Below, one piece after another: positions 1 to 64,000 of a stretch of DNA of 64,000 nucleotides; position 1 is the first letter of the stretch, and every line of letters starts with the position of its first letter. The notes beneath the pieces are model-generated. The model was not told the origin of the DNA, did not search any database, and was given only the letters and a program-made list of their open reading frames with translations. A program made the position numbers and the translations under genes. The DNA comes from Spirochaetes bacterium ADurb.Bin133 (GTDB taxonomy: Bacteria > Spirochaetota > GWE2-31-10 > MWDO01). The DNA is taken from contig MWDO01000010.1 of the NCBI GenBank assembly GCA_002070605.1, positions 1 through 64,000 of the forward strand, given 5' to 3'.

Positions 1-80
1 TCTTTTAACAGAAAATCTATGACTTTACTATTCATAGATTCTGACACTATAAAGTGAAATAAATGTTTTTTGTTTTTCAT
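1..80 (-). CDS. Putative ribbon-helix-helix protein, 5' part only
   Basis: Reading leftwards from an ATG at 78-80, the first 26 codons begin MKNKKHLFHFIVSESMNS and match the start of the complete gene at 13044-13550 with one substitution visible (K for N after MNS). The rest lies beyond the window edge. The upstream DNA, to about 185, is also nearly identical to the DNA upstream of the copy at 13550, including the ribosome-binding sequence AAGGAG. It is therefore a recent duplicate of that gene. The DNA-binding fold is inferred from the complete paralogues. Confidence 0.75.
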   Translation of the reverse strand, partial: MKNKKHLFHFIVSESMNSKVIDFLLK

Positions 81-6175: not shown

Positions 6176-6215
6176 GTTTTTTGGAGAATAAAATTGACAC
6201 ATATGCGTCAATTTT
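6176..6215. repeat. Remnant CATATG element
   Basis: TTTTTTGGAGAATAAAA is a degenerate left end, followed by TGACACATATGCGTCA near 6194, one of the most complete palindromic copies of the motif. No right end is visible because the element runs into the terminator at 6233. Confidence 0.55.
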
Positions 6216-8385: not shown

Positions 8386-8486
8386 CCGTCAGTTTTTTGG
8401 GGAATAAAAAATATTTGTTCCATATGTGTCATTTTTTTTGAGATAGAGTCGCGTTATCTATTTTCTTACCCCAAAAAACTGACGGG
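8386..8486. mobile_element. Compact MITE-like element with 17-bp terminal inverted repeats
   Basis: CCGTCAGTTTTTTGGGG at 8386-8402 is exactly complementary to CCCCAAAAAACTGACGG at 8469-8485. The roughly 100-base unit has no gene; its centre carries CATATGTGTCA near 8420. It is the cleanest example of the repeat family in this window and serves as its type copy. A nominal ORF across it is not a real gene. Confidence 0.75.
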
Positions 8487-13043: not shown

Positions 13044-13550
13044 TTACGTATATCTGGGGTAATTTTCGATTACGAGCGCGTATAATAGCTGTTTTTGAGC
13101 GGTTATATTTAACAGTTGTGTCATTTTACCCAAAAAATCATTTTTCAATTTATCAACTTTCAATTTCTTACCAACAATCCCAAGAAATCCTTCCAATCCG
13201 TATTTTGTAACGCCGTTATAGAAAAACAGTATAATATCTCGAACCGTCGAAGCCATACCAAATTCGTTATACAAAGAATGCCATCTTTTTATTCGAAGAT
13301 AATCCGCTTCGCTGATCCTGAGGTATTTATCCAATCTTTTATCGTCGGTATTATCTATAACGGCGTATTCGGAGCGGCAATTTCCGATTATTCTCTTCAT
13401 TTTTGGAATTTTTTTGTTGATAAGATGGAACATTGTTTCAAACAGTTTGCTGAACGTATTAATTTTGAACTCTTTTAGTAAGAAATCTATGACGTTACTA
13501 TTCATAGATTCAGATACTATAAAATGGAATAAGTGTTTTTTGTTTTTCAT
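13044..13550 (-). CDS. Putative tandem ribbon-helix-helix protein
   Basis: 168 residues, basic, no signal peptide. I do not recognise a named family. Two sections have a strand-helix-helix pattern like ribbon-helix-helix DNA-binding proteins: the N-terminal FHFIVSESMNSNVIDFLLKE and a second around 85-125 (YLRISEADYLRIKRW, then a helix with VRDIILFF). The gene at 1-80 is nearly identical over its visible part, and the protein at 52040-52537 has the same layout but diverged sequence. All three have a common 20-bp block upstream. A role in DNA binding is inferred. Confidence 0.65.
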   Translation of the reverse strand: MKNKKHLFHFIVSESMNSNVIDFLLKEFKINTFSKLFETMFHLINKKIPKMKRIIGNCRSEYAVIDNTDDKRLDKYLRISEADYLRIKRWHSLYNEFGMASTVRDIILFFYNGVTKYGLEGFLGIVGKKLKVDKLKNDFLGKMTQLLNITAQKQLLYALVIENYPRYT

Positions 13551-14622: not shown

Positions 14623-14730
14623 ATGAATAATAACAAAAACAAGAAATATTCGCAAATAAAATTTGAGGGTAATCCGTCAGTTTTTTGGGGTGGGGAAATG
14701 ACGCATATGTATCCATTGAACCCTCGATAG
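14623..14730 (+). pseudogene. ORF start interrupted by a repeat element
   Basis: An ATG at 14623 with AAGGAG ten bases upstream opens a frame of 35 codons. The first 17 or so codons (MNNNKNKKYSQIKFEG) precede the left end of the element at 14674; the remainder simply translates the element. This looks like a gene start cut by insertion. It may instead be a chance reading frame. Confidence 0.3.
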
Positions 14731-14832
14731 AAATTCAACGCATATGAGACAAATAAAATGACACATATGACGTTAAGAATAAAATTGACACATATGAAAC
14801 AAATATTTTTAATTTCCCAAAAAACCGACGGG
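14674..14832. mobile_element. Terminal-inverted-repeat element with four CATATG motifs
   Basis: CCGTCAGTTTTTTGGGG (14674-14690) pairs with CCCAAAAAACCGACGGG (14816-14832), with one mismatch. Inside are four motif copies in one orientation, near 14699, 14739, 14759 and 14786. There is no gene inside. The 400-base gap between the ankyrin gene and the PBP gene is mostly this element plus the PBP promoter. Confidence 0.72.
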
Positions 14833-22220: not shown

Positions 22221-22258
22221 AAAATATTCAAAACGGGAATTCCCGTTTTGAATATTTT
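22221..22258. repeat. Perfect 38-bp palindrome, left copy
   Basis: The left arm ends AAAACGGGAA and the right arm begins TTCCCGTTTT, with AT-rich outer arms; all 19 positions pair. The same palindrome recurs at 24202-24243, and its left half recurs in the units at 39011, 39613 and 39811. It abuts the left end of the element carrying the GNAT gene. Confidence 0.85.
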
Positions 22259-23400: not shown

Positions 23401-23441
23401 TGGAATAAAATTTGACACATATGCGTCAAATTTTTATTCCA
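23401..23441. repeat. Near-perfect palindrome centred on CATATG
   Basis: GGAATAAAATTTGACACATA and its near-complement meet at the centre CATATG, with only one base difference and one extra T. It shows the full palindromic form of the family motif and lies just inside the right end of the GNAT element. Confidence 0.7.
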
Positions 23442-24201: not shown

Positions 24202-24243
24202 TCAAAATATTCAAAACGGGAATTCCCGTTTTGAATATTTTGA
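24202..24243. repeat. Perfect 42-bp palindrome, right copy
   Basis: Same core as 22221-22258 (AAAACGGGAATTCCCGTTTT), here extended to 21 paired positions per arm. The two copies bracket the 2-kb AT-rich segment. On the minus strand it lies just downstream of the membrane protein gene that ends at 24265 and could also act in transcript ending, but there is no T run. Confidence 0.85.
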
Positions 24244-38874: not shown

Positions 38875-38881
38875 TCAATCC

Positions 38882-39053
38882 GACGCATATGCGTCAATAT
38901 TCATCAGGAAGCGACGCGGCGCATATAGCTCCATATGTGTCAAATTTTGTTGGGGAGCGGCGCGAGCCCGATAAGGTCTCGGTACGAAGAGGGTTTTAGT
39001 ATTTTAGTATATTCAAAACGGGAATTCCCGCTTTTATCGCGCCGCATATGCGA
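38882..39053. repeat. Repeat unit A (about 170 bp)
   Basis: It starts with the perfect palindrome GACGCATATGCGTC, carries CATATGTGTCA near 38931, the conserved stretch AGCGGCGCGAGCCC, and the left half of the EcoRI-centred palindrome (ATTCAAAACGGGAATTCCCG at 39011-39030), and ends at CGCATATGCG near 39043. Units B and C at 39477-39895 have the same order. The unit ends seven bases from the antitoxin stop codon. Confidence 0.75.
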
Positions 39054-39059
39054 TAATTC

Positions 39060-39278
39060 TCACCAATCTAATTCATCTTCGGTAGTATAATTTTCAATAG
39101 GCTCATTCGACGCTTTTATTATGCTTTCTTCTATACCTTTTACGCTTCTTATATATTCGTCGTCGCTTATATAATTCGTTTTATCTAATATTTCAATCTC
39201 ATTTCTTGAAAAATGATTTAAAAACCATATAAATTTATCGCTTACGCTATCATTTACTTTTAAAGTTATCGTTTTCAT
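39060..39278 (-). CDS. Orphan antitoxin-like protein
   Basis: 72 residues: MKTITLKVNDSVSDKFIWFL at the start and a charged tail ending EDELDW resemble small antitoxins paired with RelE/ParE toxins. Such antitoxin genes normally sit directly before the toxin gene. Here the sequence after the stop codon is repeat unit A, and no toxin frame is present. It may be a remnant or may act on a toxin elsewhere. AAGGGAG-like sequence precedes the ATG. Confidence 0.6.
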   Translation of the reverse strand: MKTITLKVNDSVSDKFIWFLNHFSRNEIEILDKTNYISDDEYIRSVKGIEESIIKASNEPIENYTTEDELDW

Positions 39279-39476
39279 AAAACTCCCTTTTTATATCTTT
39301 TTTAAAATAATCTCCCCAAAATATTTTACTACTTAAATATAAACAATTTATGAATAATAATCAATATTGTTGATGAAAAATCCCCGAATAAAATATAACA
39401 GCCATTATATTTGACATCCGCGGACAGACTAGCGTCGGCGAGCGTTTTTTTACCCTGAAGACAGGAATTCTAAATT

Positions 39477-39895
39477 GACGCATATGTGCCAAAATTTTTT
39501 CATCGGAGAGCGCGCCGCGGCGAGTATAGCTCCATATGTGTCAAATTTTGTCGAGGAGCGGCGCGAGCCCCGATAAGGTCTTGGTATGAAGATGGTTTTA
39601 GTATTTTAGTATATTCAAAACGGGAATTCCCGCTTTTATCGCGCCGCATATAGCTCCATATGTGTCGATTTATTTTCGGTATCATATGCGTCAATTTTCT
39701 ATCAGAAAGCGCCGCGGCGGCTATGAGACCCATATGTGTCAAATTTTGTCGGGGAGCGACGCGAGCCCTGTTAAGGTCTCGGTACAAAGAGTGTTTTAGT
39801 ATTTTATTATATTCAAAACGGGAATTCCCGCTTTTATCGCGTCGCATGTAGTTCCATATGTGTCAATTTTATTCCGCCACATAAAACCGACGGGA
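39477..39895. repeat. Repeat units B and C in tandem
   Basis: Unit B (39477-39668) and unit C (39682-39870) repeat unit A with point changes; their palindrome cores at 39613 and 39811 are 198 bases apart. CATATG motifs lie near 39477, 39532, 39657, 39683, 39731 and 39855. The right side closes with ACATAAAACCGACGGG, a degenerate family end (to 39895). Long frames across this region are translations of the repeat and not genes. Confidence 0.75.
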
Positions 39896-52039: not shown

Positions 52040-52537
52040 TTATAGTAATAAAATATTCGAGAGCTCTCTTTGCGGGGAAAACGATAATATAATGCTGGGT
52101 TGATTTTTAAATAGGCTCATATGGGACTTATCCCAAGCCTTTTTCCTGGATTTCTCTATTTCCCATTTGGTCTTCATACTTTCTAAAACGCTTTCAATTA
52201 ACCTGCTCTTTGATTTCTCTTTAATTTCAAAAAAAGTTCTGAGGATAAATCTTAAAACTTGAGCTTTGCTATATAATTTTAGAGAATCTTGAACGTTGGC
52301 AATCAATAAGTAGTTTTCTATATCGAGGTTGATAAAAATGTCTTTATCGGCGTTGATTTTATTATACTTAAAATAGAGAGGGTGGGATTCAAACTGCATT
52401 TTTTCTATAGCAAAACGCATGTTTTTCAATATTTTTCTGATACATTTAGATACGCTGATATTGCTATCGCGGGCCTCCTTTTTTATTAAATTTAATAGCT
52501 TTGAGTTAATGACAAAATGAAATTTGTGTAAATCCAT
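52040..52537 (-). CDS. Putative tandem ribbon-helix-helix protein (diverged paralogue)
   Basis: 165 residues, basic. KFHFVINSKLLNLIKKEARD followed by SVSKCIRKILKNM near 28 is a good ribbon-helix-helix pattern; a second one follows near 70-110 (DIFINLDIENYLLIANVQD, then QVLRFILRTFFEI). It has the same length and layout as the protein at 13044-13550 and the same 20-bp upstream block, although the proteins have diverged widely. No named family recognised; DNA binding is inferred. Confidence 0.65.
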   Translation of the reverse strand: MDLHKFHFVINSKLLNLIKKEARDSNISVSKCIRKILKNMRFAIEKMQFESHPLYFKYNKINADKDIFINLDIENYLLIANVQDSLKLYSKAQVLRFILRTFFEIKEKSKSRLIESVLESMKTKWEIEKSRKKAWDKSHMSLFKNQPSIILSFSPQRELSNILLL

Positions 52538-63307: not shown

Positions 63308-64000
63308 TTACTTATCTTGACGTTTTAATATCTCATTGAGAATTAGCTCTTTACTGTCTAAATCTTCTTGAGTTATTGCATAGCCCGGGGCGAGATTTTT
63401 ATTGATCTCGTCTAATAGAGATAAAAGTTCGTCAATCTCCATATTAATAAGGTTGACTGCTTTTATTTTGGTATATTTCAAGGGGATCGTCGAGGTAGTA
63501 GTAGTAATTAACGCATATGTTGTCGTTGTTACGGGGATGGTTGTCGTCGGCGCGGGAATGGTTGTCGTCGTAGTAGGAATTGTCGTCGTCGTAGTGGTAG
63601 TTGACACATATGTTGTCGTTGAAGTCGTAGACGTAGTAGTCGACGTAGAAGTTGACGCATACGTTGTTGTCGTCGGCGCGGGGATGGTCGTCGTCGTAGT
63701 AATTGACACATATGTTGTCGTTGAAGTCGTAGACGTCGAAGTTGACGTAGAGGTTGACGCATACGTTGTTGTTGTCGTCGCGGGGATGGTTGTCGACGTT
63801 GTCGTAATTGACACATATGTTGAAGTCGTAGACGAAGTAGTCGACGTAGAGGTTGACGCATACGTTGTTGTCGTCGGCGCGGGGATGGTTGTAGTCGTAA
63901 TTGACGCATATGTTGTTGTCGTTGTAGTAGTCGGCTCTTCAAAGACTGTCGTCGTAGTCGACGTACCAACGGTTTTTTTTGATTTTTTAGGCTTTAAATA
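63308..64000 (-). CDS. Threonine-rich repeat protein, 5' end beyond the window
   Basis: The frame is open to the right edge, so the start is missing; 230 codons are visible. The first visible residues are charged (YLKPKKSKKTVGT), then about 160 residues of Thr/Ser repeats with units such as TTTTYASTSTST and TTTYVSITTTTTIPAP, and a C-terminal 56-residue helical section (MEIDELLSLLDEINKNL). The repeats are DNA-level tandem units of about 60-100 bases. TYVS and TYAS are encoded by ACATATGTGTCA and ACGTATGCGTCA, the same half-motif found between genes. Likely a secreted or surface linker protein; function unknown. Confidence 0.7.
   Translation of the reverse strand, partial: YLKPKKSKKTVGTSTTTTVFEEPTTTTTTTYASITTTTIPAPTTTTYASTSTSTTSSTTSTYVSITTTSTTIPATTTTTYASTSTSTSTSTTSTTTYVSITTTTTIPAPTTTTYASTSTSTTTSTTSTTTYVSTTTTTTTIPTTTTTIPAPTTTIPVTTTTYALITTTTSTIPLKYTKIKAVNLINMEIDELLSLLDEINKNLAPGYAITQEDLDSKELILNEILKRQDK

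Follow-up and report, generated by a model that had tools for sequence, protein, structure and literature searches.

The gene at the end of the 64,000-nucleotide stretch of Spirochaetes bacterium ADurb.Bin133 DNA analyzed here (contig MWDO01000010.1; the window) encodes a repeated TYVS/TYAS peptide in a word that also occurs between genes, which raises the question of whether a dispersed DNA repeat was written into a protein or whether the codons chosen for a TYxS repeat match it by chance. The gene is a 510-codon frame on the minus strand (C10:63311-64840), and its 3' part is the ORF at 63308-64000, which is 5' open there. Throughout, G000 is the source genome, G001 is its congener, and C10, C92, and similar labels are contigs. 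The repeated coding motif named in the original prediction was present as eight TY(V/A)(S/L) units, seven of them exact copies of ACRTATGYGTCA and one a single-mismatch copy, ACATATGCGTTA. The parts of the gene are as follows.

63308-64000, minus strand: 3' part of the gene, whose product has an N-terminal domain that no Pfam family matches, a linker rich in Thr, and a C terminus that is short and conserved
63478-63945, minus strand: Thr/Ser-rich linker array with eight motif units and periods of about 51 and 102 bp
63509-63520, minus strand: degenerate motif unit ACATATGCGTTA (TYAL)
63602-63613, minus strand: coding motif ACATATGTGTCA (TYVS)
63653-63664, minus strand: coding motif ACGTATGCGTCA (TYAS)
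63704-63715, minus strand: coding motif ACATATGTGTCA (TYVS)
63755-63766, minus strand: coding motif ACGTATGCGTCA (TYAS)
63809-63820, minus strand: coding motif ACATATGTGTCA (TYVS)
63854-63865, minus strand: coding motif ACGTATGCGTCA (TYAS)
63902-63913, minus strand: coding motif ACATATGCGTCA (TYAS)

The same core marked intergenic elements of the window, as had also been proposed, with clusters at 6195, 23413, 38881-39880, and other positions. Thirty-seven one-mismatch matches to the motif were found in the window, compared to 0.43 expected from shuffles, and an Rfam search of the window gave no match. Intergenic carriers are listed below without strand.

6195-6210: full intergenic palindrome TGACACATATGCGTCA
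23413-23428: full intergenic palindrome TGACACATATGCGTCA
8386-8485: MITE-like element, inverted repeats CCGTCAGTTTTTTGGGG / CCCCAAAAAACTGACGG enclosing one motif, with direct repeat AAGTTCTCC on the flanks
14674-14831: MITE-like element, inverted repeats CCGTCAGTTTTTTGGGG / CCCCAAAAAACTGACGG, three motif modules
2725-2950: MITE-like element, inverted repeats CCGTCAGTTTTTTGGGG / CCCCAAAAAACTGACGG, several motif modules
38881-39880: long intergenic mosaic, built of motif modules together with CGGGAATTCCCG palindromes

The motif proved to be a repeat of the whole genome and of a narrow lineage. In the 2.98-Mb source genome, a draft Spirochaetota MAG of 103 contigs, CATATGYGTCA was present 571 times in the forward and 667 times in the reverse orientation (1,238 in all), and a reversed-pattern control gave 0. 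Among the other genomes of the phylum, the congener (Go_SlDig_bin_318) had 65 copies and the remaining 39 genomes had 0 to 3 each. When 85,000 species genomes, from which the source genome's own records are possibly absent, were scanned for two motifs 9 to 14 bases apart, only single matches, taken as chance, were found beyond the congener; viral contigs yielded five single motif matches. Further statistics were based on 1.22 Mb of the genome, sampled as stretches and with simple ORF calls made for this analysis. Of the 470 exact copies in this sample, 428 (91%) were intergenic, 38 were in ORF calls, and 4 were at edges. The density of CATATG was 3.9 per kb in intergenic DNA versus 0.10 in coding DNA, at least one arm was exact or one mismatch from YGTCR in 96% of the intergenic CATATG copies, and the consensus of the dispersed motif was roughly G-N-Y-S-CATATGYGTCAAWTTT. 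Thr-rich linkers had 17 exact copies in 4.7 kb, and the 428 intergenic ones were spread over 141.6 kb; the density in other coding DNA was far lower. A DNA-uptake-type signal accumulating genome-wide, coding regions included, would likewise be a short word at very high copy number, as in Neisseria, where DUS number about 1,830 to 1,910 per meningococcal genome (PMC3898611). However, the sampled copies were overwhelmingly intergenic, clustered, and often within inverted-repeat elements, the copy number differed about 20-fold inside one genus, and the motif was tied to a gene family, and we regard an uptake signal as very improbable.

Many of the motif carriers, mostly 73 to 240 bp long, were bounded by inverted repeats, CCGTCRGTTTTTTGGGG, which were found 198 times in the source genome, twice in the congener, and 0 times in 11 other genomes. 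Paired terminal inverted repeats without a transposase numbered 46 to 48 in 1.22 Mb. Exact 5-mer repeats at one offset, as in target-site duplication, were present in 15 of 46 pairs versus 0.55 in shuffles, and the flanking direct repeats of several elements read as 8 to 9 bp. Since only 85 of the 470 sampled motifs lay between paired inverted repeats, most sit in other mosaics; the spacing of direct copies peaked near 22, 26 to 27, 37, and 47 to 48 bp. No multicopy transposase family with matching ends was found in the 41% of the genome that was sampled. A Y1_Tnp search of the genome gave one match only and no free-standing RAYT, and a RAYT was ruled out as the driver because this single domain lies inside a methylase-like ORF; the domain, of the REP-type transposase class, is at G000:C2:35627-35917, and the ORF exceeds 1,000 codons.

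These carriers resemble several known systems in part. Like MITEs, they have terminal inverted repeats, a length of 73 to 240 bp, and flanking direct repeats of about 8 to 9 bp. Unlike MITEs, the larger versions hold a tandem ribbon-helix-helix gene, most motifs lie outside paired repeats, and no terminal inverted repeats were found around the coding motif in the window linker. REPs are high-copy short palindromes between genes, some of them inside genes (PMC3733652), but no dedicated RAYT (Y1_Tnp) gene flanked by repeats was present here. In Neisseria, hundreds of short palindromic dRS3 repeats, defined as ATTCCC(N8)GGGAAT, are separated by short spacers and together form mosaics between genes (PMC3898611). 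The present short palindromes and spacer modules form intergenic mosaics of the same kind as NIME/dRS3, but the consensus is unlike that of dRS3, and here the motif also has copies in linker coding sequence and is associated with a gene family whose protein is predicted to bind DNA.

Through that family, the source of the motif is more than an intergenic repeat, being tied to a gene that is present in many copies and whose product is predicted to bind DNA. Two of its members lie in the window.

13044-13550, minus strand: gene for a 168-aa predicted tandem ribbon-helix-helix protein, with the motif 119 bp upstream of the start
3-80, minus strand: start of a second copy of the 168-aa gene, cut by the contig end, with an upstream motif cluster at 194-284

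A further copy was seen at C10:68543-68887, and a divergent family member (MDLHKFHFVINSK...) lies at window positions 52040-52537 on the minus strand. A protein search with the 168-aa protein gave 72 matches in the source genome and 13 in the congener, some cut by contig ends, and a profile search gave 92 and 23, respectively, with at most 13 in other genomes of the order. Several copies were enclosed by the inverted repeats of the motif elements. A motif arm (CATATG) was located 100 to 194 bp upstream, mostly near 120 bp, in 32 of the 35 LFHF-type genes read, compared to 81 of 963 genes in general with an arm at -140 to -100. The predicted structure contained two beta-alpha-alpha units in one chain (pLDDT 76.5), and its best structural match was TraY of the F plasmid (Z of 8.1 to 8.6, 98 to 107 residues aligned, 6 to 7% identity), followed by AvtR and VirC2; the Foldseek E values for the model were weak. 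The likeness to TraY, VirC2, and AvtR is one of tandem ribbon-helix-helix fold in a predicted model of the 168-aa protein, and the difference, beside the low identity to TraY, is that here the gene is multicopy and lies within elements bounded by inverted repeats. The protein matched nothing in Pfam or NCBIfam and nothing significantly among the PHROGs. An association of ribbon-helix-helix genes with palindromic repeats was looked for in the literature and not found, the sole return being an unrelated casposon paper.

A second subfamily had a different palindrome, GGGAATTCC, at a similar upstream place in most members, and two further family members had GCGCATATGCGC upstream. Because the subfamilies have different upstream palindromes, cognate binding sites are suggested, and we infer that each palindrome may be the site of its own subfamily's predicted protein, the palindrome studied here probably being that of the TraY-like one. 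The GGGAATTCC-type palindrome was also dispersed, at 103 places in the source genome and 49 in the congener when one mismatch was allowed; on the same terms, one mismatched site was found in G004 and zero were found in three other genomes. In its ACGGGAATTCCCGT form and close variants, the second palindrome was seen in the window at 22233-22246, 24216-24229, 39019, 39621, and 39819, and ACGGGAATTCCCGT also lies about 110 to 125 bp upstream of the second subfamily's genes. GGAACATATGTTCC was looked for as an additional dispersed palindrome and was not found.

We compared the codons of the coding copies to those used elsewhere. In the linkers, TYVS was encoded as ACA TAT GTG TCA throughout, save for fuller or decayed forms (e.g., DTYVT). 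In long ORFs, GTG makes up 6% of Val codons and TCA makes up 12% of Ser codons. The probability of TAT GTG TCA given YVS was 0.005 from genome codon use, and where linkers encode Val elsewhere than in the motif, none of the 75 codons was GTG. Within the window array, codons were identical in 28 of 28 cases at Y, 13 of 13 at V/A, and 21 of 21 at S, whereas most nearby Thr columns agreed in roughly one-third to one-half of comparisons (e.g., 9 of 28), the exception being the ACA column immediately before the motif. Since tandem copies are not independent, these identities are descriptive; what carries the argument is that several unrelated genes with motif-bearing linkers agree (C10, C45/C32, C13, C27, and C92). 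The comparison with other Thr-rich genes that had been proposed as a check showed the same codons there, while (S/T)Y(V/A)S in gene calls outside linkers had motif codons at 4 of 16 sites and other codons at 12 of 16.

The similarity to the intergenic repeat extended beyond the peptide. The codon after TY(V/A)(S/L) in linkers was ATT or AAT (Ile or Asn) in 13 of 25 cases, whereas serines elsewhere in the linkers were followed by one of these codons in 2 of 149 (P = 3e-11, for instances that are not independent within or between linkers, which duplicate and may recombine). In intergenic copies, the motif most often ran on into ATT (183) or AAT (87). Bases 7 and 11 of the intergenic copies were paired as T..A in 351, T..G in 11, C..A in 77, and C..G in 96, which was mirrored in the linkers, where TYVS had TCA only and TYAS had TCA, TCG, or TCT. 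The flanking GAC bases, whose conservation beyond amino acid need had been proposed as a check, were missing in the window gene, which has ACA ACR before TAT, but this outer half of the palindrome was kept in other linkers, at C92 (ATT GAC ACA TAT GTA), C2 (ATT GAC GCA TAT GCG), and C7. Whichever strand they lay on, the 17 exact copies in linkers all read as D-(T/A)-Y-(V/A)-S. An alternative stop-free phase of the motif encodes LTHMCQ, and congener-type copies of the 168-aa gene itself have the LTHM phase at their 3' ends.

These results bear directly on the reading in which chance or selection on the peptide accounts for the linker units, TYxS being useful in Thr-rich linkers and its codons matching the motif coincidentally. 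TY(V/A)S does recur in the linkers of several genes, and a Tyr within a Thr-rich linker could matter to the protein. However, the codons GTG and TCA are rare and yet general in linker TYVS while adjacent Thr codons are scrambled, sites outside linkers mostly have other codons, and the motif continues in bases that the peptide does not need. Chance codon choice was rejected on the codon and flank data, and we find peptide-level selection scarcely credible as well. Domestication, the other explanation originally offered, is supported in the sense of entry into coding DNA: the motif has one phase in several unrelated linkers, with flanks kept and codons frozen.

We therefore assign a probability of about 0.76 to the reading in which a palindrome that is dispersed through the genome and specific to the genus (core TTGACRCATATGYGTCAA) entered coding DNA and gave rise to the coding units, the palindrome probably being bound by a ribbon-helix-helix protein. 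The number of copies, their placement in one phase, the frozen codons, the continuation of the flanks and their match to each lineage, and the association with the gene family were observed directly. Between genes, the palindrome often belongs to elements that proliferate and have inverted repeats at their ends, and some of these elements carry the predicted tandem ribbon-helix-helix (TraY-like) gene. Entry into coding DNA may have been by insertion, by conversion of a short stretch, or by mutations that produced the site. Copies landing in the Thr-rich linkers of exported or lipoprotein-like proteins would have been kept in the phase that gives the hydrophilic D-(T/A)-Y-(V/A)-S-(I/N), and in the window gene, tandem duplication within the linker helped raise the unit number.

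The congener was informative about both the time and the route of entry. The ortholog of the window gene in G001 was 78% identical, with an equally long linker and zero motifs, so the motif is dispensable in the linker of this gene. That the congener was wholly without coding copies proved to be wrong, since its other linkers have the motif (9 exact copies in 4.5 kb, often in the fuller form GAC RCA TAT GYG TCA) and only the window-gene ortholog does not. The motif was much commoner in these linkers than predicted from its genome-wide density, and permissive neutrality alone is thus insufficient. ATT or AAT flanks were present at 11 of 16 linker copies versus 269 of 427 dispersed copies in the source genome and at 0 of 8 versus 5 of 41 in the congener; this lineage match favors capture into linkers after the two lineages split, on counts that are small and clustered. 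The linker copies consist of the motif alone, with no other part of the intergenic modules, and a plain transposition event is therefore not visible. In a conserved gene at C1:14986-15738 (minus strand), whose protein has a HELGHALFELGDEYGG motif, a full palindrome is present where the congener reads GACGCCCATATAGCAAAA, giving DAYASK versus DAHIAK. Insertion was ruled out there because the length is the same in both genomes, and insertion is thus not the sole route. C92:1-603 has three motif arms at a spacing of about 24 to 27 bp that read in frame as NDTYEVKENDTYGVDDKNDAYE, much as if a gene had captured an array of intergenic modules. Coding DNA may thus acquire the motif both by capture of modules and by sequence change at constant length.

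Two further explanations must be weighed against these data. The coding copies could be DNA sites that are selected today, for example for the ribbon-helix-helix protein, with linkers as their cheapest location. Consistent with this are the synonymously frozen motif codons in an array whose neighboring codons are near saturation, the palindrome gained at unchanged length in a conserved protein, and the enrichment in congener linkers though the motif is otherwise rare in that genome. On the other hand, the window-gene ortholog lacks the motif, several linker copies have decayed (TTA, CCA, and ACT variants), and recent capture or homogenization would freeze codons too; present-day selection is possible but in our view doubtful. 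Alternatively, one or a few entries into linkers could have been followed by spread from gene to gene via recombination among similar Thr-rich linkers, as the linker blocks common to C45 and C32 and the recurrence of TIDAYASTTTTTT and TYVSNSTTT blocks in otherwise different genes might indicate. Yet at least four distinct forms exist (TYVSI, TYVSN, IDTYV, and IDAYAS), and the linker flanks of the congener differ and fit its own dispersed copies, which makes such spread a rather unlikely account.

Entry of the dispersed palindrome into coding DNA has a close parallel in the Rickettsia palindromic elements (RPEs), palindromic repeats that lie in frame within unrelated protein genes (PMC10969869). 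The likeness is one of principle: here too, a dispersed palindrome is in frame in unrelated genes. The principle is common to both, but the size is not, an RPE being a block of about 150 bp that encodes a long peptide, whereas the coding unit here is about 12 to 20 bp and only the motif is common to linkers and intergenic elements; the present copies are also concentrated in Thr-rich linkers, with one phase there, and belong to a different phylum. If this reading is true, a proliferating DNA repeat has been written into unrelated proteins outside Rickettsia, in a very small form of repeat capture in which one word the size of a binding site (about 16 bp) is taken up in a fixed phase. The repeat would moreover be linked to one particular multicopy protein family whose subfamilies each have a palindrome of their own, a link that would make both the spread of short words and any DNA function of the coding copies directly testable. 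It is conceivable, though we consider it speculative, that this is a new selfish system in which ribbon-helix-helix genes in inverted-repeat elements multiply subfamily-specific sites and also convert coding DNA without insertion, the target writing D-T/A-Y-V/A-S into host proteins. Five direct copies of the motif at a spacing of 22 bp were additionally seen in the congener at G001:C6:94-192.
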